A program made the translations under genes and the position numbers. Positions 8,291 to 64,000 of a stretch of DNA of 64,000 nt are shown here, piece by piece. Every line of letters begins with the position of its first letter. The first letter of the stretch is position 1. Source of the DNA: Coffea arabica. Lineage: Eukaryota > Streptophyta > Magnoliopsida > Gentianales > Rubiaceae. Location of the stretch: the NCBI RefSeq assembly GCF_036785885.1, contig NC_092320.1, positions 10,355,557 through 10,419,556 on the forward strand, given 5' to 3'. The notes beneath the pieces are model-generated. The model ran no database searches, was not told the DNA's origin, and worked only from the letters and a program-made list of their open reading frames with translations.

Positions 8291-11200
8291 TCACCGAGAT
8301 CCACGCCATGACTTGAACATCAAACCATGCTCGCTCACCGTACCCCCAGATAATCGCCTCATCTTTTGCCATAGCTGCCTTGCTTTTCCTAATGTTAAAG
8401 GCCCTGAACCTGAGCGCCTCCCTAGTGGCCCAGAATCTTGCATCGCATATCTTGCCGATGAGCTCAATAAATCTGATACAGATATTCCCCTTTCAACATC
8501 TACCTCACTATCATAATGAGAGACTGGGGATTGACCATAATGAGAGACTGGGGATTGACCATGTAAAGGAACTCCCAAGGGGTCTAAAGTGTTAGAAATC
8601 CCAGTATCCATGTCTAGAGACAGATCCTCCTGACTACAACTTCTGGACCCCATTTCTTTCGTTTCATCACACTCATTGCATATTAATTTGAGTGCCTGAA
8701 CAACTTCACCCATGAATGGTCTGTTTGATACCTCTGGTTGAACGCACATTGAAGCAATCGCAGCTACCTTTGAGATACCATCAAATGGAAGATCAGGGCC
8801 CAAAGTTGGGTCTATGATGGATTCTAAACCTTCTTCACTCGTAAGCACTGGGCGGGCCCAAGAAACCAAATTCTCTTGACCAGGTGGTTGAGACATGTCT
8901 ACTGGTTTTCTACCTGTCAACAGCTCAAGAAGTACAACCCCATAACTGTAAACATCGCTCTTCACAAGCAGATGACCGGTCATTGCATACTCTGGAGCGA
9001 CATACCTGGTACATTAATAAAACCAAACTCTGTTTATGTCACTAAATGATGTCAAAACTGAATCTTAAGAACAACAAATAAAAAGGAAACACAGAGTGGG
9101 TGAACTGATGACTGCTGCTGCTGCATCTATGTTACATATTAGACAAGTCACAAGTCTGAGTGTTCATTGTAACTGAAAGGAATGAAGTTGGACAGAAGGT
9201 GGGTTCAGAACCATGTGGCACCAAGAAACTTCACCAATGGAAATGAAACATATAACACTGGCAGAGGACAACTGATTCAAATTGCCTCAATTTTGTACTA
9301 GCATTCCAAGGTTTGAAAACTTGAAACCACACAAAGTTATTAAAAGATAATGTGAGGGATATAACACCATCAATCTAACCATAAAGTTGCCCTAAAAATG
9401 TTCAGATAAGGTCATCCAAGGGTTCATACCAAGTCGACTTAAAGAAAAGGTGCCCAGGGGAATGATTTAGCTACAGCAAGTCAAAAGCAGGGAAATTTAC
9501 CCAAAGGTTCCCATTACACGTGTCGAAATGTGTTTATTTTCCTCATCCAATGCAGTTCGAGCCAAACCAAAATCAGAGACTTTAGGCGTAAAGTCATGTT
9601 CCAACAAGATGTTGCTGGACTTGAAGTCCCTGTGTATGACTCGTGGACTCGAATCTTCATGCAGATAGGCCAGACCACGAGCAGCACCAAGAGCTATCTT
9701 AAGCCGAGCACCCCAATCAAGAGGAGCATATTCCTGGTGAACTCCTGAGAGCAAGCAAAGAAAGCATATAAATATAGCCAGGAAACAAGGTTGGAACTTG
9801 TATAAACAGAAGATAATATTACCGTGCAGATGAGATTCCACACTGCCATTTGGTATGAGTTCATAGATTAAGCAACGAGTTCGCTCCTCTGTACATATAC
9901 CAATCAACTTGACCAAGTTTCGGTGATGAAGGCGACTAAGCATCTCTATTTCCGACAAGAACTCACGACCTCCCTGCTGGTCAGCTCGCTTTAGAACTTT
10001 TACAGCCACATGTGTCCCATCTTCAAGCACGCCACTATAAACACGACCAAAGCCGCCTTCACCAAGTATTCTTGTTTCACTGAAGTTATCTGTTGCTTTC
10101 TCTATATCACATGTACTAAAAGATTTTGTAGAACCAGCATATGCTGCAATGCTAGAACCATAAGATAACGAAGCAGAACTTGGCCCACTTCCAATCATAG
10201 AGGCAGGAATCCCTACATTAGACACAGCAAACTTTGAGTACTAAGCTATTTTTCTGCTTCAATGGGTCAATTGTTATGTGTTCTTGTTACAATTTTTTGA
10301 TGACTCTTAGTTTCTCCATATGACCATGCTATGTTGTTATATGCTCTTTTTTTCATTTTTTTTAATTTTTATTATATTTTTTTAGCAGGGGAAGGGTGGG
10401 ATTTTAGAAGAAGGGAAGGGGAAGGAGGGGAATTGAACCCGGAACTTCTGGGGCCTCAATGATATGCTCATTTAATGATTAACAAGTACAATAATGTATT
10501 ATCTGCTGCCTAGGATAACTAGTAAAGACTTAAAAACATTTTGTTATGCAATTGGGTATTCAGAATTTCAAGAATGTTTGTGTGGTACCTAAAGGACTTG
10601 GTATTTGTGTGGTACCTAAAGGAAAAAACCAATCCTGATACACTCCAGCTGACCACAAAAACAGCCAACAGGTTCCCTAAGTTTTTATTTTTCGTGGGAC
10701 TAGTTAAGTAGACTTCTAAAATAGCTCATGAGCTTATCCAATGGTTCTAACAGAAGATGCTTTCTTGAGATCATAAGCATTCATATGAGGTCAATCTTAG
10801 AGATCAAGATAGTACCTGATGATTTTGCAAGGGAAGGCATAGTAGCCGGTGGAGTAGAGTCTGGAGGGCAGAGCTGCTCTCTGTGTTTTAAAACCAATAC
10901 CCATGCAATAGCGCAGCAGAAAATTACAACTATAGAGGTAGACAAAACTATAATTGCTATCACACTTCGACTTAGCCCACCTCTGTGATGCTGTCTTCCC
11001 ACATCAACCCCAAATGGCTTTATGGCCGCTCCATTGTTGTTGCGACTAGAATAAGGGTCAGTTTCTATAGTACCAATATCAGAAGATGCAGAAGGTGGAG
11101 AGGGTGGAAGACCTACAGGTTTAGTGCCCTTCATTTTAATATCAAGATCAAACCACAAATGTGAAAGAGAATATGATGCAGGCAGCCTGACATCGTTACC

Positions 11201-14200
11201 TGGATAATGTACATAAAGCACTTCGTAGTCTCCAAAGAGTGAAGTTTGTATAATAACTTCTTGGAGCCAGAATCTTCGAAATGTCAGATAAGCTGTGGTA
11301 TTATCAAATGTTTCTCCCAGGGGTACTAAGTCAGTGAGGACAATGGTCTTTTCTGGATCCTGGCTGGCAGCGTTTGCCCCCATAATCCGAACTTGACTTG
11401 GCTTCAAAAACACTCCAGCAGCTACTTCTGCTGCGAACTCTGAAACTAAAGGGAAGAAATTGTACAACGCAACACTTAGGCGGAGTCCTACTTGCATAGG
11501 TAGGACACAAACGCATGGAGATCCAGGAGCACCATTTGTCAATGGCTCTGAGCACGTCAATGATGTGCAATCTACAAAATAAAATTGGTTTACAAATTTC
11601 TAGCACCAACTTTCATAAATAGATTGCTAAACCAGATGAACAACAGAAGGAATAAGGGAAAAGAAGTACCTCCATTAGGTGGTGGAGGTGGTAATGCTTG
11701 CAAAGGTGGCTGGAGAGGCATCTTTGGCATCCTTGGCATAGGTCTTGTGGGAGACATTTTCGGGGAATGAATTGGCACTGGCAGTCCACAAGGATGATCA
11801 TAGATAAGCATTCAAAACTAACAAATCTTAACGTCAAACTTTGCCAGCGTTCCTTATACAACAATGAAAAACATGAGATAGCCTTTAACTTACTTTGTTG
11901 AGATGAAGATGAAGGATGTGGTGATGGCGAGGAAGAATCATGGCTTTTTGGTGTAGGAAAGGGAAAATGAGATGAGGGTGTTGAGGATCCTGTAGAGCAA
12001 AGGTTGTTGGACATCAGAGGAAAACAAATAAAAGGAAATAAGACCCAGGGTTTCATAGCAAACCAGCAATTTTAATACCTGGGTTTAGGGGTGGAGGAGC
12101 ATGGAACCTAAAGTCAGTCTTCGGGTCTGAGCTTGAATTATCTGGAGGAGCTAATTTGTGGGCCAACATTTACAACAAATTGAGAAGAAAAAATAGATGA
12201 TAGGTAGGAGTTAAAAATCAGGACAGGAACATTGTTTGAGACTTTTGTACCTTCTACAGCCGAAGCAGGAGGAGGAGCCATATATACTGATGGAGCAGGA
12301 GTTCTCTTATAATTCTTCCCATGATGCCATTGAAATGAAGAAGAAGGTCGATATGCAGGGGAGTTGGACCCTGAAACTACAGGGGCATTGCGGGATGGAA
12401 GAGGAGAAGGAGCATTATCGGAATTCCCCATATTATCATGAACAGATGGAGCTAAGACAAAGTAAAAAATCATTTTCAGGGTTTCATAGCAAACCAGCAA
12501 TTTTAATACCTAGGTTTAGGGGTGGAGGAGCATGGAACCTAAAGTCAGTCTTCGGGTCTGAGCTTGAATTATCAGGAGGAGCTAATTTGTGGGCCAACAT
12601 TTACAACAAATTGAGAAGGAAAAATAGATGATAGGTAGGAGTTAAAAATCAGGACAGGAACATTGTTTGAGACTTTTATACCTTCTACAGCCGAAGCAGG
12701 AGGAGGAGCCATATATACTGATGGAGCAGGAGTTCTCTTATAATTCTTCCCATGATGCCATTGAAATGAAGAAGAAGGTTGAGATGCAGGGGAGTTGGAC
12801 CCTGAAACTACAGGAGCATTGCGGGATGGAAGAGGAGGAGGAGCATTATCGGAATTCCCCATATTATCATGAACAGATGGAGCTAAGACAAAGTAAAAAA
12901 TCATTTATAGATATCTCTAGCATTTCTGGCTACTTATCAGAAAATGTCATTGAGAAATCAGAAGTTTTATATTCACCTTTTGCTGGTGAAGTGCTCACAG
13001 GCGACTGCTGGGTGCTTGTTCCATTTGGTGGTGTGGCAACAGGAGATGATGCAGGAGCTGTATCAGGCTCTGCACAATATGAGGGATGTATACAAGATAT
13101 CAATTAGGTAACAGAGCTACTTCATAATTGCAATATAATCGTCAAAATGTAAACCCAGACTATCATTAAACATATCTCTGTAATGGAACTTAAGGAATCC
13201 TGTCCTTTAAAAAAAACACAAACACTGAATAGAAGAATAAACCCATGCTAATGTTTATATGTCTCCTCAGTTTTCAGCTACAAGAAATACAGCTCAAAAT
13301 GAGAACTATTTTGTAATTATCAGCAGATAGAAACTTTCAACCCAATATCAATCCCTGTTACATGCAGCAGCTGCACATCTAAGTCATAAAGACCTACAAG
13401 CGGTGTCATCGTGTAAAATATAACTGGAAGCAACTTGTTAGTAGGCTTTAGTTCCTCATACGCACTTCCTTTTCACTCAGAGATGGTTGTCTTATTCCTT
13501 TTTTCTTGTTAGGAATTTGATACTTTTGTAGGTTAGAACATAAATTTTAATACAAGAAAATTGTGCACACTCCTTCACAAAACTAGAACAGAATGAAGGC
13601 ATTCCCTCAAATTTGAAACACAAAACTCACTTTTGAGGATTTCCTTTTTTCCATCTTTGATTTTCTTTTTCAAGTTGAACAAGCTGGTGCACTTTTCTCT
13701 TTAAAGGTCCAAAAGTATTTGTGTGAATTGCATAAATAACATCTCTGTCAAGTAATTAATAAGAGAGTATATCCGCCAGCACAACAGGAAGTAAAAAATA
13801 TTTGAATATTTTAATAATTTTAGTATGTATCAACTCAAGTATCACCTGACGAAGTGGAAGGAGGTTCTTTGGGTAATGCTGGTGGAATAGATAATGGGTT
13901 CCCTGGTGACTTGCCCGGAGACAGTCCAACTGGCACTGCAGCATTCAGACAAATAGTGATCACCAAATGTTCATTTCAAAAAGAATATTGCAGAAAAAGA
14001 TAAGTAGCTAGGAGTACCAGGAAGAATGGATGATGATATCCCAGGGGGCAGTGAATTTTGTGGTGCTCTCTTTGATGCATGTGTGTTGGATGCTACGTTT
14101 GACACAGAAATAGGTGCAGGATTTAGTATGAAATGTTCAACAATAAATTATTTGTGGGAGGGGAAATAAATTATCTACCAGCTACCTGGGGCAGTTGCCA

Positions 14201-22815: not shown

Positions 22816-25800
22816 TCACCGATTTGGATCATATGCTTCAAATTGCTTCTTGAAGCGTTCTGCCATTTTTGTTTCTTCTTCCTTGCTGAGCTTGCAATTT
22901 TTCCAATCAGCTCTGTCAGCCGTGTTCAACAAGCCCGCCAAAACCTACAAGTAGTTAGCACAATATCGTCCCATGGTTATAGTTGTCACCACATTACAAC
23001 TCAGCTAAATGCTTGCATATCAGATTAATGTTGAATTCCCACGTCACCAAAACAAACCGTTAGAGAGGAAGGTAACTTGCAATGTAGTTGCATTCAAACA
23101 AGACCACAAATAAAAATAAAATACAAAATAAAGAGACTCAAAAAAGTACTCAAGATCAGTTGAAAAATAAAGGATGCTACTAACACAATTAAATATCAAG
23201 GAATACTGTGCAACTTGCCAACAATATATTTGCTTAATCTATTTCGTACACAACAGAAACAGTAACATCATGCAGGCTACAATTAGCATCTTACCTCACG
23301 GCCAAATTGGCTTGGAAATCTCTCATTTTCTTCAACAACATGAGTCAAAATAGTTCCACCAGGAAGTTCAACATAGAATAAACTGCAACTTCTATCATAC
23401 TGTGTCCGCAACAATCTCCTCCCTTCCGAATTATTAGTACCTGCAACAAACAGGAAATGCAGAAAGTTGGGGCATTCAAAGTTGAAACTTTTGAAAACAA
23501 AACTAAAGAGCACCTCCATCCGGTCTAAACAGAGATATAGCAACCACGGAAGAAAGAAGGATGAATGGAGGAAACTAACATACTTTAGGTCAACAACATG
23601 GTGGGAATGAACCTCACTTTTAAAGCTTAGTCTATTTTCATAATGTTCTACACCATGTTATTTGCACAACATCCTTAATCATTAAGAATCTCAGATGTAT
23701 CAATAGTAGCCCTTTGGTACTTAGATAGTTCTTTTAGATTAGTACATTTGGGGGGTAGAGAAAGTAGCTTTTGAAACTTAATGCTATTAAGCTAAGTCAT
23801 TTGAAGTTCTGTCTTAATATCTACTTAAAAGCCAAGCAAGCATCTAAAGAAACCTAAAAGTTAGATATTGAGCACAGATTTTATAAGGTAATTATTGGGG
23901 ATTGTTCACTTCCAATTCCTTACTTTCAATTGTCTTAAACTTGAACCCCAACTTTTTGGCGGCTAAATTGAAAATATCTTTAATGCCAGATGCCCTTGAA
24001 GATGGAACAGGAACAACCTGAAAAATACAAAGAGCAGAAATATTCATGAGAACATCAAAATAGTGACAGTTTTAAGATCCAATAAAGACATTAAGATGTA
24101 CTTCACACTCAAGCGAAGTGAAAAGCAATGAAGACAACCAAATGCCAAATGTAAGCTGGCCACCAGTAGGGATTCAAAATCCCTTCTGGGCTGTAGGTCG
24201 AGGGTTCAAACCTCGCACCCTGCAGTTAAAAAAAATCCATAGGATGTGTCTGTGCGCACCTCGTCTAGGACCCAGTTGGGTTTCAGTGTAGGATATTGTA
24301 GGTGTTGCCAATTGTTAAAAAGATTAAAATAAAATAAAGAGAAAGGAATTCCAGCTCCAAATTTGTGATATCAAAGCTTTTTGCCACTAAAAACACTGGA
24401 TCCCAGAGTTGGTAATTTTGTGCCTTTTTTTTTTGTTACTATAAGATTTTAATTGAAAAAGTAAGGGTGAAAGGAGTAAAACCTCGTCATTAGGATAATA
24501 CCTCATATTTAAAGACAAAATTAGCAACACTCAAGAAGCTTACGTCAAATCTCACAGTTGTAGACAGAATAAGCTTTAAATCTTTCCCACACAAGGATAC
24601 CAAACAAACAACTGCTGCAGGTTTGTATTAATTTGTTTTACCATCTGATTTGATGTTGACTAACATATTGTTTTCATCACATCCTAATTGTAGGCATGAA
24701 AAATTGTTCACTACACAACTGGTACTAGGATATGAGTTGGCTCTATGTAACAAATAACAAGGACTTTAGAGGTGAGATGGGGGACTAGGACTTCAAATTC
24801 CTGTCCCTCCATTTCTTTCACCAGCAATTGGACCATTTCTGGGAAGTTGATTTGGTGTTTCTCAAGTTGTTGGAGACAAATAATTAGTGGGGCAGTTGAT
24901 TGAGAAACAAGGTAGACAGGAAAACAAAATGGACAAGAATTAAACTAAAGCAAAGAACAATTTTATCAGTTCCCATCTACAAAAAAATGCAAAATACAAG
25001 AGCAATCTTCTATACTCATTAAACAGAAGAAGAAGACAACATACCTGAAGATTGGCATGAGTTGCTCGCTTAAAGACCCATTCAAAGAAAACCACTTGCT
25101 TTCCTTGGTTTTCAAAGTAAGCTTTTAGACTGTTTTGAACTCTATTCAACTCTATTTCACAATCTTCTGGCATGGAAAGGGTGTTAGGCAAGTGCTCAAC
25201 AGGAACAATTAGCACGTGATCTTCTACTAATGGTCCTTTAGCAAGTGCAGAGTAGTAATGTTCTCCTATGCCAGTGATAAGATGCGACTCCACACTGGGG
25301 CTTGACAAACAAAACCAGCACTCTTTGGACCTAAAATAGATAATGTGCCATGAATTTTTGTCAATTTCTATCTACATAAAGTTTTGCAGAATTTCTCAGA
25401 TTCAAGTTGCCAGTAATTAAAATAGTTTGAGCCATCATAACAACATCCAAAAAGAAAGGGAATTAATTAACAACAAAAACCTGTTAGAGCTGGGGGTCCC
25501 AAAAGATCTCCTGCTAGAGGCACTGCCATTTTCATCCTGTAAACTATGCTTAAAGTTGCAATCTGGACCTCTTTCACATTTTCCTTTGTTGAGAAGGTCA
25601 AAACAGACACCCCTGATTGACTGTTGCCTTGCATCTTCATCATGCCGAAAGTGGCACTTCTCCCCACGAGGACAGCACCCAGAAGAGGTAAACTTAAAGC
25701 ACAGCCTTTCACTGTCACCATCTCCATGTTTCTGCCTTTTCTGGGAGACATCATAACGCCAATATTGGGAATCAGACCCACTTTCACCAGGTCTCTCTGC

Positions 25801-28800
25801 TTTAGCCTCAGTAGGGGTTGCTTTCTCCACCATTGTGTAGGGAGATAGAGTTGTATTTGGTGGTTTTGCACAAATTTCAACACTGGACATTGTAGATGCT
25901 GGAGTTGGAGAAATTGCATGAATAAATTTCTGAAACAGGAAGAGAGTGAAGTAAATGCTAAAAGTGCAAGGTAATCTAACAATTAACAAATTGCATTTCC
26001 TAAAATAAGTAACCAAGAGCATCCCATATAGCTAAGCAAATCAGTATAAATTTGGCAGAATCCAATACTCAGCTTGCATATGCAAGCACAGGGGTAGGAA
26101 CAGCAAAAATGCAGCAGATAACTCCAGAAGTATGTATCAGAACTAATATCAAAGTTGTCTTCCATTTTTATAGCAACAGATGCAACAAGATCACCATGTT
26201 GCACTTGCAAAAAAAAGAGTCTTCATCTAGCCCAAGACATGTTTTACTCGGTCATCTGAGGAAAATAATTCACAGGCAAGATTGTTGAACTGACAAAAAC
26301 CAAAATGTAAGTCAAATTAGAGAAGGAACAAAACCTGTTTGTTTTTGTTTCCAACTGGAGCTAAACCCATAAAACGAGTTACATGCACAGCATCCACGTT
26401 TGTATATGGTTCGCGAGCATAGAACACACCCATAGTTCCTGCAACATGGTAGCTACAAGAAAAAGAACTCTCAACACACATTAACTTGTGCCTAAGGTTG
26501 TTCACATAGACAACCACACATGAAAATGGTAACTTTTGCAATCACAAAAATGAATGCAATAGGGATATACCCTCCCCTACTTAGACCTGTCAACAGTCCG
26601 GGTCTGGACACGGACCCGGACCGGACCCGCCAAATAATTTCGGGTACGGGTAGGAATATAATTCCGTTACCCGGACCCGGAACCGGATCTGTTTTATCAA
26701 ACATAAAAACGGGGTCGGATACGGAATATAGTATTCTGACCCGTATTCCGACCCGGACCCGGATATAAATAAATTAATTATTTAAAAAAAATATATTTAC
26801 CACTATAATACTCCAAATTTACTTCAATCTAATTGTTATCCAAACAGACCAAACCCTAATACCCCAATTTTAGACAAGCGCCGCATGTCTCTCTCACTCT
26901 CTTCTCTTTTGCTGTCCCCAATTTTAGCCGTCCCCTTTCCAAGCTTCAAAGAGGAGCAAAGACAAAATCTAAGTTTTCAGTCCACCACCTCTCTCTCTTC
27001 GGCCCCGAGCAATTACTTAAAAGGAAGGAAAGAAGCGGTTGCAGACTTGCAGTGCCCAAACCAATTTTTAACAAAAAAATCTGAAAGGATCTATTTGCAG
27101 TGGATCTATTTGCAGTCTGCAGTGGACTGGATTGGTGGGGACCGTGGGGTAAATCATCATCCATTCTTCATTCTTCATTCCTGTGGCTGCTTCCTTCATC
27201 ATTTCTACTTCCTGCTCTCCTCTTATTGCATTCTATCGCCAAAACAACAATTAAGCAACAGGAGGCACTTTTATCACCTCGATTTCCCAGCTCTATTTTT
27301 CTGCTTCCAACTTTCTTTCCGGGATTGCTCTGCTCACTTCAATTGATGCATATTTTCCTTTTTTAAAAAAAAATTAAACCAATTTCTTTTATTAAGATGG
27401 TTCAGCTTTGCGCCGTCTCTCTCTCTTTTTTCTGGATAGACCCAACCCGGATTCGAGACCCGTCGAATCCAGTTCCGGAACATAGAGTAGAGATCCGTCG
27501 AGTAAACGGGTCTAATCCGAATCCGATAAAGTATGACGGGTCCAGGTCCAGACTAATGAATTCCAGCCCGAACCCGACCCGTTGACAGGCTTACCCCTAC
27601 TGATGTCAAAGGCTCTTCTACAACAGTAATAGTAGGAAATTTGCCTACTGTGATTCATTTTTATGTAAGTTACAGCATAAAAAACTGGGCAACGACCTAG
27701 TGATGTCACTACCAACTTCTGCATGGGGACCCAAATGACACCTAGAAAAAGTAAGGACAATCGAAGTCTAGCAACAATATTGTAGTTATCTACAATGAGA
27801 AGTTAATCAAGCTGGGAGCTTTTTCATCTCTTTGCCGGATTACCTCTATTATATAACCTGCAACGAACAAAATTCTTGCAAAATATTCCCCAGTTGAAGA
27901 AACAAATTTCAAAACTCCAGTGGGACTAAGATGGTTGAATAGGAGGGCATAGCAAGAAATGGCAAAAATGGAGCTAGGTATAATGCAGTAGTGACCAATG
28001 ACCAACAATTTTCTGAAATATCCAGAAGAAGAAATAAAGTGACAATGATATTGGCTTTCTACCCATGCATGTAGTAGCGAAACTAAAACCGAAGAACATG
28101 AGCATAATTTGCTCGGCACTGCTCAGGTTTTCTGCCAATGAGTACAGTTCTCTAAAGAGACTGAATGAATGTTCTGAAAGAAGGACCCTGTTAGAGAACA
28201 TAAGTCATAATTCACTTACCGGGGCTTAATATCTGCTACTAACTCTGATATGGTGGAATCAGCATCAGCTGAATCAGAGACTCCTGAAGGTACGTCAGAT
28301 GTAGCAGCCTTATTGGTGACTCCGCTAGGCCATTCATTAGTGAAATCCAATTAAGGAGTTTTTGAAGAAAAGAAAAGACCCTTTTAAACTTGTATAAATT
28401 CAAAAGAAAGGATAATTAAACTTCTTCAAGAAAAATGGGGGCAAAAGTAGAGTTCATATTCAACAATGCAAAGGATATGTCAGAAATATGTCCACAATCC
28501 CTGGCTCCTCAGCCAACGCCCTCAGCGCATCAACATCATCTTCACTATACGTGCCAAATTGCATTCCACTTGCAGACTTCCTACCACATAGGTAAACAAC
28601 AGATAAACCTGGAAATAAGTAACACGCATCAGCTATCATAAACAAAAGTTCATGATTTACAAACATCCCAACATTGAAACATTAGTTCTAATTGAAAACA
28701 ACATAATAGTTGTAAACTTTGATTGGCCAATACTAGTATGCTCATTCAAATTATGAAATTCAAAGTTGCAGGACTTCTAGAGAGCAAATAGGTACACACG

Positions 28801-29947
28801 CAGCAATAATTCCAGATAATGTTAGGGATAATTAACAAAAGGAATAACATACATTTTCCTAAACTCGCTTAATTCTTCACCACTCAGGATGCCAACCTAG
28901 CATGTTGAAGAAATCTAAAGAAGTACGTCTACATGCATCTAGAATGATTGATTTGCAGGCGACTTTGTACATTCTTAGGCTTCCTGAAGTTATTCAATGT
29001 CCAGCAGCAATCCCACAGTTTGAATCCCAACTAAATAAGCATCCTTGATCCCCCAAGTCAGAACAAGAAAGTGAGAAACAAGACCAAGTTGCTACTTGAA
29101 TTGTATTGCTTGATCAAGATTATTACCATCTGAATACTAGATTAAGTACCTAATTTTGCAGGTGATAACTTAGCTCACCAACAACATGGTAGCGAATTAA
29201 AAGTTATTTCATCTCCAAATCCATCACGAAATGAACGCTGGGATCAGTTTTGGTAGTCGAAGTACCCAACCACATATAAGACCACCATGCAAAAGGGATC
29301 CACATTGGCTACCTGCAGATTACTTGGAGTTGGGTACCACTTGAAACAAACAAGCCACCAAAAGTTCACAGAATAAACAAACAAGATGACATCATCAACA
29401 AAATTAGCTCCAGTCAAACAATTACCAAAATGTGTACAAGCACATTGTAACAGGGAGCGAATAAAGGGATTTTGCCAAATCATGTACCGTGGAGAGTGAA
29501 CTTTCCACTGCCTTTCAACCAGTAGAGATTTCCACAAACCTTGAGGCCATCCATCTTGAACCCTTGGTTGCCAGCTTCTTTGGAAGTGGCCGATAGAATC
29601 TTCGGCGCGCCAACACCGTAGTCGCCGATGAAGTAAGTCGGAATGGGGAAGTTGGACCGGCCTGCAATATAGTCATTGAACTCCTCGAGACCGTCCGGTG
29701 AGTCCGGAAAGAATTGGCCAACGCAAAGAAGCGCGTCAAATGGACCGGCCGACTTATTTACCTGGAATTGACAATCTAAGGTGAATAATTGACTATTAGG
29801 GAACCCTAGGGTAGCAGAGAGTGTGAGTGTGTGTTCGTGTGTGTCAGAGAGAGGAGGAGGGCCAGATACCGAAGAGACGCGTTTGCAGAGCTGGTTGAGG
29901 CGGCCGAGGACGTCGCCGCAGAGGAGGATTCGAGGGGCCGGAGTCAT
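22816..29947 (-). CDS. C3H64: CwfJ family / CCCH zinc-finger protein (C3H64-type)
   Basis: Homologue of yeast Cwf19/CWF19L1-type proteins, linked to debranching of intron lariats and spliceosome recycling; Arabidopsis counterpart At5g56900. Exons: 29870-29947, 29488-29761, 28479-28608, 28220-28339, 26335-26452, 25481-25929, 25045-25330, 23924-24017, 23295-23440 and 22816-22944; 1824 bases, 607 residues. Residues 1-240 form the N-terminal Cwf19-like domain (PRILLCGDVLGRLNQL, GPFDALLCVGQFF, GVFYAREPY). Two C-x8-C-x5-C-x3-H fingers follow (C317/C326/C332/H336 and C349/C358/C364/H368). CwfJ C-terminal domains start at CWFC (394-397) with the HIT-like VEDHVLIVPVEHLPNT. The intron 28340-28478 is AT-AC. 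I chose ATG 29947 by family alignment; an in-frame ATG at 30055 would add 36 residues. Introns contain a hAT element and a SINE-like repeat. Confidence 0.94.
24155..24320 (+). repeat. tRNA-derived SINE-like repeat in CwfJ gene intron
   Basis: Contains tggccaccagtaggg (A-box-like) followed about 35 bases later by gggttcaaacctcgcaccc (B-box-like), a short tRNA-unrelated part, and an end with ttgttaaaaa. This is the layout of plant SINEs. It lies in the intron between exons 25045-25330 and 23924-24017, opposite to the gene. Confidence 0.5.
26582..27593. mobile_element. Non-autonomous hAT element in CwfJ gene intron
   Basis: Terminal inverted repeats tagacctgtcaac (left) and taagcctgtcaac (right, reverse-complemented) are flanked by a perfect 8-bp target duplication cccctact (26574-26581 and 27594-27601). 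Subterminal regions are dense in cgggtc/acccg motifs, as in hAT families with 'GGGTCGGGT' subterminal repeats. The 1012-bp body has no transposase frame, so it is non-autonomous. It sits in the 1.8-kb intron between exons 28220-28339 and 26335-26452. Confidence 0.92.
28340..28478 (-). other. U12-type AT-AC intron
   Basis: The 5' splice site reads ATATCCTTT right after ...TTTCTGAC, the branch site reads tccttaat, and the 3' end is ttcac just before TAATGAATGG. All three match the minor-spliceosome consensus. Only this join restores the family sequence FLTNEWP and keeps the frame; no GT donor is placed to do so. Confidence 0.93.
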
Positions 29948-36949: not shown

Positions 36950-39596
36950 CAGGATGAGCCGGTTATCGCGTGATTCTCGTGGCTTTGAGGGGTGTTTTGG
37001 TCGTATTTTTGTGGCTTTGGTGTTTTGCTTTTGTCCGCTGGGTCTTTTGCATTGTAACTTTGCTTTGTCCGCGTGGCTCTCTCTTGGCCCTTTTTGCTCT
37101 GTCCGTGTGGCCCTCTTGTTTGTAGTTGCTTTGGTTCCACTAGCGAGTGGGCGGTGGCTGCTGTCCGCGTGCCTTTCTTTACCAGGGGTGAGTGGCTTTC
37201 TTTACCAGGTGTCCAAAAAAAGGGTGAGTTGGTTTAGCTACAGTACACGCGTTGTTGGTCGTTGCTGTCCGAAGCGGTTTATGGGTCTGCATGGCTCTTA
37301 TTCTCTTTTGCTCGTTCTCGGTCACCAATTTGGTCTCATTGTTTTCTTGCTTGTGTTTTCAGCTATTCAGCAAATATAACTTCAGAAAGTTTCTTTTGGT
37401 TTTGAACTGTTTTACTGTTCAGCAAACTTAGGCCGTGAGCTCAATCTCTTTTTGGCTCTAATTTTTCTTCTTAGTTTTCTTTCGCAACTTCGGAAATAAC
37501 TTGAACAGCTTATGCGGTCAGCGGGATTTTTTTTTTAGCTTTCGCTCTTCTTTTTGGTTTTTTTTGGTAGCTTCGGAAATAACTTGAGAAAGTTTCTTTT
37601 GGTTTTAAAGTACTTCACTGTTTGATTGGCTTCGCTGGAAATTCTTTTTTGTTGCTGTGGTTCTTTTGTATGGTTCATTTTAGACGTTTGTTTGGTTTCC
37701 GCTTGAGCTGTGTATAATATGCTTTGAGAATGGGTCGAAATAGAGTATATGGAAGTTTGGAAGAGGCTCGTGCTGAGAAAAATCGAAGGAGCCGCGAGCA
37801 ACGTGCTGCTGCTCGGCGTGGGACAAAGAATGATGCGCCATTAGGAGTGTGTACATTAGCTGTTACGGCTTTTAATATACATGACCCAAATGCTGTGAAT
37901 CAGCCAAATATGGGTGTCGTTGAATCTTCATTAGGTTCGGGCTCAGTATTGCCATTTGCAGAGAATAATGCAGAGCACCTTCGAGCTGTATGTCTGTGCT
38001 TATTTTGAGCATGTCTCATGCAATATAAATTGTTGTTTAAATCTTTTGGAATAAATGTTAAATTATTTATGTTAACAGTGGTTTCGCCTAAGCATGTACT
38101 TTGGTGAGACAAACGAGTCTGACTTAGTTAAGCATACTAAACTCACAATCTTTAACTATGTTTTGGGTGTTTTAAAGGAAAATCAAGGAGATGTATCTAG
38201 GTCTGCTGGTAATGGTGCTAGCGAGGTTCCAACAACTAATTCAGATGCGGGTGAATCATCTTTGCATAGGCGACGTCGGTGTACAAGACGCTCTGTGACT
38301 AATCCATTGACCACAATAATTACAGAGCCTGCAGTATTGCCCAGTAATGTAGAGCAATTTCCAACCGTATGTTTGTGCTTATTTTGAGCATCTTTCATGC
38401 AATAAGATTGTTGTTTAGACCCCTTGCAATAAATGTTAGACTACTTATATTACCGGTGGTTTTATCTAGACATGTACTATGGCTAGACTAACCAGTGGGT
38501 GACATATTAGTTTTTGTCTATTACAAGTCAGATTGATTGACTTAGGCACACTGAATTCATGGTCCTTAAGTACGCTTTGGCTGGTTTGCAGGAAAATGAA
38601 CAAAATGTCTGTGCGTCTATTGCTGATGGTGCTAACGAGATTCCATCAACTAATTCAGATGCTGCTGAACCGTCATTGCGCAGGCAACGTCGATCTAGAA
38701 AACGAGCTGTGACTGATCCATTAACTACAATAGCTACAGAACCTGCTGTATTGCCTGATGTTCCAAGTTGTCCATATTGTCATGCAAAACGATTTCATCA
38801 GGAACCTCCTGGTTTTTGCTGTGCCTCCGGTGAGGTACAGTTATTACCTACTGAGATGCCGAGAGAACTTATGCTATTATATATAGAAGACTCTGATGAG
38901 GCTGCTGAGTTTCGCAGATGTGTTAGAAGCTATAATAACATGTTTGCATTCACTTCGATTGGTATCTATTCTGATAAATCTTTGGCTGCAAACTACAATA
39001 GAGTTTATACATTTCGAATCCAGGGACAAATGTATAATAACTTTCCTTGCTTTTCTTACCGACTAAACAATTCTTTCGAACCTACCCAACGTAATACTTT
39101 TGCTGAAAATTCACTGCTGACCGCGCGACACTCTTCATTGGGAACACTTAGGCACTCACCAATTTCCTCTCATTTTGACCGTTCTTGTTTAGAAATGTTC
39201 TACTACATCTATCATTTTATCAGATGACAGTTTATCTATTTCTTTTATAAATATATGTTTTTATCCTGTGCTCCTACGCCTTACAACAAAAATTGTAAAA
39301 CTGGAAAATAATTAACACTTGTATTCAAATTCTCGCAATGGCACTTCTCAGGTGACTCCATCATTTTACCATTCTTTTTGTTTGTATTAAAACCTTTAAA
39401 TCATAATTAAAATTCTCATTAAATCTATTCATCGATATGTTCATTCCCCATGCACATACAAAAACACTATATCAAACAAATCCTATTGTAATAAATTAAC
39501 TACTCCTCTCACACTCCAATTTTCCAGACTAATACCCATTATAGTAAATTAAGAAATCCCAGCTACCTGACGCACAGCGTCAGGGCAAAAAACTAG
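36950..39596 (+). mobile_element. Truncated Helitron
   Basis: The 3' end is canonical: an 8-bp stem CCTGACGC / GCGTCAGG (39566-39573 and 39577-39584) with a 3-base loop, eight further bases, then CTAG (39593-39596) followed by T, the Helitron host junction. Inside is the N-terminal part of a Helitron Rep protein. The left end is not resolved: I saw no clear TC start, so 36950 is approximate. The leader 37375-37620 contains repeated phrases (cttcggaaataacttga, gaaagtttcttttggtttt). The catalytic Rep and helicase parts are missing, so the copy cannot move by itself. Confidence 0.85.
37730..39227 (+). pseudogene. Helitron Rep N-terminal fragment
   Basis: Three exons join in one frame: 37730-37987, 38178-38366 and 38592-39227, 360 residues. 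It begins with a basic stretch EKNRRSREQRAAARRGT, as in plant Helitron proteins. The recognisable part is CPYCHAKRFHQEPPGFCCAS, a Cys-rich Helitron_like_N motif, then YNNMFAFTSIGI and RVYTFRIQGQMYN. After that the similarity stops abruptly and the frame runs into non-coding sequence; no HUH Rep motif or SF1 helicase is present. The second intron and start of exon 3 duplicate intron 1 and exon 2. Probably dead, but the frame is not broken by stops within the recognised part. Confidence 0.82.

Positions 39597-60885: not shown

Positions 60886-64000
<3,115 letters not shown>

Follow-up and report, generated by a model that had tools for sequence, protein, structure and literature searches.

Does a gene for a putative splicing-associated protein in Coffea arabica depend for its own expression on the minor spliceosome, and would such a dependence amount to regulation? 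The question arises from a 64,000-nt stretch of DNA, here called the window, on contig C11 of the assembly, for which a sequence-only reading had placed a U12-type AT-AC intron at positions 28340..28478, inside a gene of the CwfJ/Cwf19 family, and had proposed a feedback link between minor splicing and a splicing-recycling factor. As outlined in the following sections, the intron is predicted with a probability of about 0.96 to be an ordinary member of its class, and the regulatory proposal appears unlikely.

The host gene and its product

The gene lies on the minus strand, and its ten exons were modelled manually, guided by splice sites and reading frame. The features on which the argument depends are the following (all exons according to the hand-built model).

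22816..29947, minus strand: CWF19L1/Drn1-like gene, 10 coding exons, 607 aa, with Pfam and PDB-chain matches
29947-29870, minus strand: exon 1
29761-29488, minus strand: exon 2
28608-28479, minus strand: exon 3, ending in ...VDIFLT, last codon split
28340..28478, minus strand: intron 3, predicted U12-type AT-AC, 139 nt, phase 2 (140 nt with the same ends in a second copy on contig C12)
28470..28478, minus strand: donor ATATCCTTT, the sole [AG]TATCCTTY in the window on either strand
28350..28357, minus strand: branch motif TCCTTAAT, identical in the C12 copy
28340..28341, minus strand: terminal AC acceptor, as read from the sequence
28339-28220, minus strand: exon 4, starting with (T)NEWPSGV...
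26452-26335, minus strand: exon 5
25929-25481, minus strand: exon 6
25330-25045, minus strand: exon 7
24017-23924, minus strand: exon 8
23440-23295, minus strand: exon 9
22944-22816, minus strand: exon 10

The remaining eight introns of the gene are GT-AG, which is so partly by construction, as such sites were sought in building the model. With respect to the identity of the product, the 607-aa protein contains the Pfam domains CwfJ_C_1 (118.9 bits, cut-off 21) and CwfJ_C_2 (74.1 bits, cut-off 28.8), in agreement with the family named in the sequence-only reading, and comparison with protein chains of known structure refines this assignment to CWF19L1/Drn1-like. The best match is chain 8ro2_L1 (CWF19-like protein 1, E 7.5e-85), followed by 8ro1_L1, a CWF19L1 homolog (E 1.7e-78); these two chains we take to be the human and the C. 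elegans CWF19L1 protein, respectively. The CWF19L2 chains 8ro1_L2 (E 2.4e-17) and 6id0_U (E 4.3e-17) match only the C-terminal part of the host protein, from residue 390 on, and an N-terminal CWF19L1-type domain is present outside these matches (residues 6-304 on 8ro2_L1, 132.3 bits). Judged by these similarities, the host gene is most likely a CWF19L1/Drn1 orthologue rather than a CWF19L2-like gene.

Since the protein resembles CWF19L1/Drn1 and is much further from CWF19L2, the role to be expected would be in lariat-intron turnover together with Dbr1, and such a function is likely for the host protein. Human CWF19L1 (hDrn1) is reported to bind the debranching enzyme hDbr1 (available text of PMC4346921), and Drn1 is said to be without the metal centre needed for catalysis (available text of PMC11139901). 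For the human ILS1 complex, the accessible part of PMC6461851 reports CWF19L2 and not CWF19L1; both proteins are represented by chains in PDB entry 8ro2.

The alignment to 8ro2_L1 consists of two blocks, over host-protein residues 6-304 and 391-604. It is between these blocks that the two proteins differ, with 27 residues in 8ro2_L1 versus 86 in the host protein, where the additional length corresponds to a stretch with CCCH motifs; three zinc-finger-type models match residues ~312-403, all of them under their cut-offs. The Arabidopsis orthologue of the host gene is presumably AT5G56900. The available part of PMC2267713 gives the figures 2 and 596 for this gene under the name AtC3H64; they were read as numbers of CCCH motifs and residues, respectively, and are to be compared with two CCCH-like motifs (by eye) and 607 residues in the host protein.

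Signals, chance expectation and reading frame at intron 3

On the minus strand, intron 3 starts with ATATCCTTTGC at 28478 and ends with ACTCCTTAATTGGATTTCAC (last bases TTTCAC) at 28340, and the coordinates of the sequence-only reading are thus exact. It has the ATATCCTT[TC] donor and the AC 3' end of the U12-type AT-AC class, and TCCTTAAT fits the TCCTTRAY branch motif expected about 10-15 nt from the 3' end; the presumptive branch A, the second A of the motif, is found 11 nt upstream of the final base of the intron, close to the 12 or so bases given before. The donor and branch motifs are 112 nt apart. Compared with the branch site described for such introns (TCCTTAAC-like and 10-15 bases upstream of the junction; available text of PMC2426677), the motif is typical except for its last base, which is T instead of the C of the consensus. 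Intron 3 is in phase 2, in line with the tendency of minor introns to avoid phase 0 (reported in PMC10639083, as far as available).

If both boundaries are moved by one or two bases, giving CA-CA or AC-TC ends, the resulting mRNA is identical (by eye), and the three readings are therefore indistinguishable by RNA reads alone; of the three, only AT-AC has known splice ends.

The motifs by themselves prove little. While the donor pattern [AG]TATCCTT[TC] occurs only once in the 64 kb, both strands included, and pairs with a single branch/acceptor site, first-order Markov simulation yields on average 0.275 chance AT-AC pairs per window (200 runs with at most 4 pairs each, counted at 60-3000 nt), and a genome-wide pattern search found 7 matches as compared to 15 in the reversed control, at a motif spacing of 60-90 nt that excludes intron 3 itself. 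Motif-only significance was therefore dropped as a proof of intron 3.

In turn, the reading frame is far more informative. Removal of intron 3 joins ...TTTCTGAC to TAATGAATGG to give ...VDIFLTNEWPSGV..., which restores FLTNEWP in frame as had been claimed. There are 170 stop-free, frame-keeping junction pairs (59 GT-AG, 24 GC-AG, 29 AT-AC and 58 AT-AG), and the sole junction among them that retains both IFLT and WPSG is 28478/28340. As this filter was taken from the gene model itself, the count is a test of consistency; the independent part of the evidence is that the CWF19L1 chains 8ro2_L1 (VDILLTSPWPKCV) and 8ro1_L1 (TDILLTSVWPADI) give an ungapped alignment across the join. At the level of sequence comparison, the reading frame is thus strong evidence for intron 3.

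The same test bears on the possibility that the major spliceosome uses GT-AG or GC-AG ends nearby, with the AT-AC reading being a coincidence, which we consider to have hardly any probability: 83 such pairs do leave the frame open, but none of them retains both IFLT and WPSG, and the seven that keep FLT lose NEWPS and have donors (ATT/GTTGAA and TTT/GCATTG) that are weak by eye. Alternatives with AT-AG ends were rejected together with the GT-AG and GC-AG ones, as none of these among the 170 pairs keeps the two segments. Nor is it at all probable that intron 3 is removed as an AT-AC intron by the major (U2-type) spliceosome, since, although major-type AT-AC introns are known (85 in a data set from human, related subtypes included; available text of PMC8280824), intron 3 combines a full U12 donor with a U12 branch motif that is close to the consensus and correctly spaced.

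Intron 3 of this plant CWF19L1/Drn1 gene is hence a further, ordinary case of a known class, as predicted from its sequence. That class is less exceptional than the sequence-only reading had suggested by calling AT-AC introns a small minority of U12 introns: a minority they are, but as they account for 26% of U12 introns in A. thaliana (soybean, 23%; rice, 22%; maize, 13%; available text of PMC7367187) the wording was overstated. To what extent the positions of U12 introns are shared between human and Arabidopsis is disputed, the numbers reported in the accessible parts of three studies being 20 (PMC2426677), 8 of 93 (PMC7367187) and 7 (PMC10639083). Among the main texts searched, none was found that links a CWF19L1/CwfJ gene to a minor intron; U12DB, IAOD, ERISdb and supplementary tables lie outside this scope and may already list intron 3. 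For annotation, the intron matters because a gene finder restricted to GT-AG would interrupt the host gene within a conserved segment; in biological terms, it is a further minor intron, located in a gene whose product is likely to act in intron turnover.

The C12 copy and the minor snRNA genes of the genome

Among the best candidates scored, the stretch from exon 3 to exon 4 is matched twice in the assembly, on C11 (the window) and, at 98% identity, on C12. The C12 copy comprises all ten exons with an intact frame of 607 aa, and its 140-nt intron 3 differs by four substitutions and one gap column, none of which affects the donor, the branch motif or the terminal AC. However, with the copies this close (98% identity), such agreement gives weak support to intron 3. 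Matches on chromosome-size contigs come in pairs (C3/C4, C9/C10 and C11/C12), which suggests that the assembly is a phased diploid one.

The two copies differ in intron 4, which measures 1767 nt on C11 versus 747 nt on C12, where an element of 1012 bp is missing. This element (26582..27593, within 26574..27601, plus-strand coordinates) has similar inverted ends, TAGACCTGTCAAC and TAAGCCTGTCAAC, and is flanked on both sides by an 8-bp duplication, CCCCTACT; duplications of this kind are produced by hAT-type elements.

Removal of a U12-type intron requires minor snRNAs, and the genome encodes U12 (2 matches), U6atac (10 matches, on C7, C9, C10, C13 and C14; L010-L017) and U11 (4 matches), all above the family cut-offs. 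U12 carries AGTAAGGA; judged by eye, this sequence pairs with the branch motif except for a bulged A and one U-G pair. Of the U6atac copies, five were read on their own strand, and all of these have AAGGAG at position 12 or 13. The 5' ends of two U11 copies form 7 of 11 and 8 of 11 pairs with the donor stretch, figures that include G-U pairs and stand without a control.

Plant snRNA genes have an upstream element with the consensus RTCCCACATCG. It is found within the 90 bases before both U12 copies, and elements of this type precede three of the five U6atac copies just mentioned, in one case unusually close, and two of the four U11 copies. The U6atac copies L013 and L015 have no such element in the preceding 90 bases and may be pseudogenes. 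U4atac gave no match in the genome, and the same search gave none in any control genome either; plant and mammalian minor snRNAs are described as divergent (available text of PMC545797).

Constitutive requirement or regulatory link

According to the most likely route, U11 and U12 would recognise the donor ATATCCTTT and the branch motif TCCTTAAT, U11 would then give way to U6atac at the donor, and 28479 would be joined to 28339 by the minor spliceosome, yielding the LTNEWP segment. With intron 3 retained, the reading frame runs into a stop 5 codons beyond the join, after 166 aa (168 aa in the C12 copy). RNA with a stop well upstream of later junctions is likely to decay, and since the stop at 166 aa is far upstream of the later junctions, a transcript retaining intron 3 would probably be degraded. 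Intron 3 is thus most likely a constitutive requirement for the protein, with no shown role as a regulator.

It also has to be weighed whether intron 3 is in addition a regulatory link, by which the activity of the minor spliceosome would set the output of CWF19L1/Drn1 and hence lariat turnover. The stop after 166 aa upon retention would be compatible with such a link, as would the binding of hDbr1 by hDrn1 (PMC4346921) and the observation that upon loss of Dbr1 the increase in lariats of U12 introns is about 60% of that of U2 introns (available text of PMC11139901). However, dependence on the minor spliceosome is common to every gene with a minor intron, the window has no further U12 donor matching [AG]TATCCTTY, a partial donor near intron position 65, TTATCCTTT, reads TTATCCCTT in the C12 copy, and there is no evidence here that CWF19L1/Drn1 acts on minor splicing. 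To our knowledge, CWF19L1/Drn1 is not known as a minor-spliceosome protein. The feedback link proposed in the sequence-only reading accordingly finds no support, and we regard a regulatory link as improbable.

Slightly less probable still is a more specific version, in which a slow A-type minor intron would throttle the output of CWF19L1/Drn1 and thereby match lariat debranching to the capacity of the minor spliceosome in plants. In human cells, A-type minor introns are reported to be spliced less efficiently and in a CENATAC-dependent manner (available text of PMC8280824), which makes a rate-limiting role of intron 3 conceivable. If this were true, lariat recycling would be tied to the minor spliceosome.

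Known cases provide a measure for such proposals. The host gene resembles 48K, 65K and CENATAC, which are splicing-related genes with an mRNA that relies on minor splice sites (available text of PMC8280824, also for the following comparisons). In animal CENATAC, a concept likened there to 48K and 65K, major and minor 5' sites compete, whereas the host gene has no second complete U12 donor in the window. No conserved U12 splice site competing with that of intron 3 was found nearby, and no conserved switch element is shared between the C11 and C12 copies; a second U12 donor near intron 3 was rejected as a candidate on the same grounds, i.e., the single occurrence of [AG]TATCCTTY in the window and the alteration of the partial site on C12. 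Competing U2-type sites around intron 3 were covered as frame-keeping pairs only. Plant CENATAC is reportedly switched according to whether a minor intron is retained or spliced, which needs no second donor, but there the spliced form is unproductive, whereas that of CWF19L1/Drn1 is productive.

As to the remainder of the window, an Rfam search over its whole length gave no match. A tandem duplication at 12046..12906 comprises 2.0 copies of a 431-bp unit with 98% matches. By eye, open reading frames resemble a receptor-like kinase gene (8291..11560, minus strand), a piece of a Helitron helicase (38559..39227, plus strand) and the start of a cytokinin dehydrogenase gene (60995..61792, plus strand).
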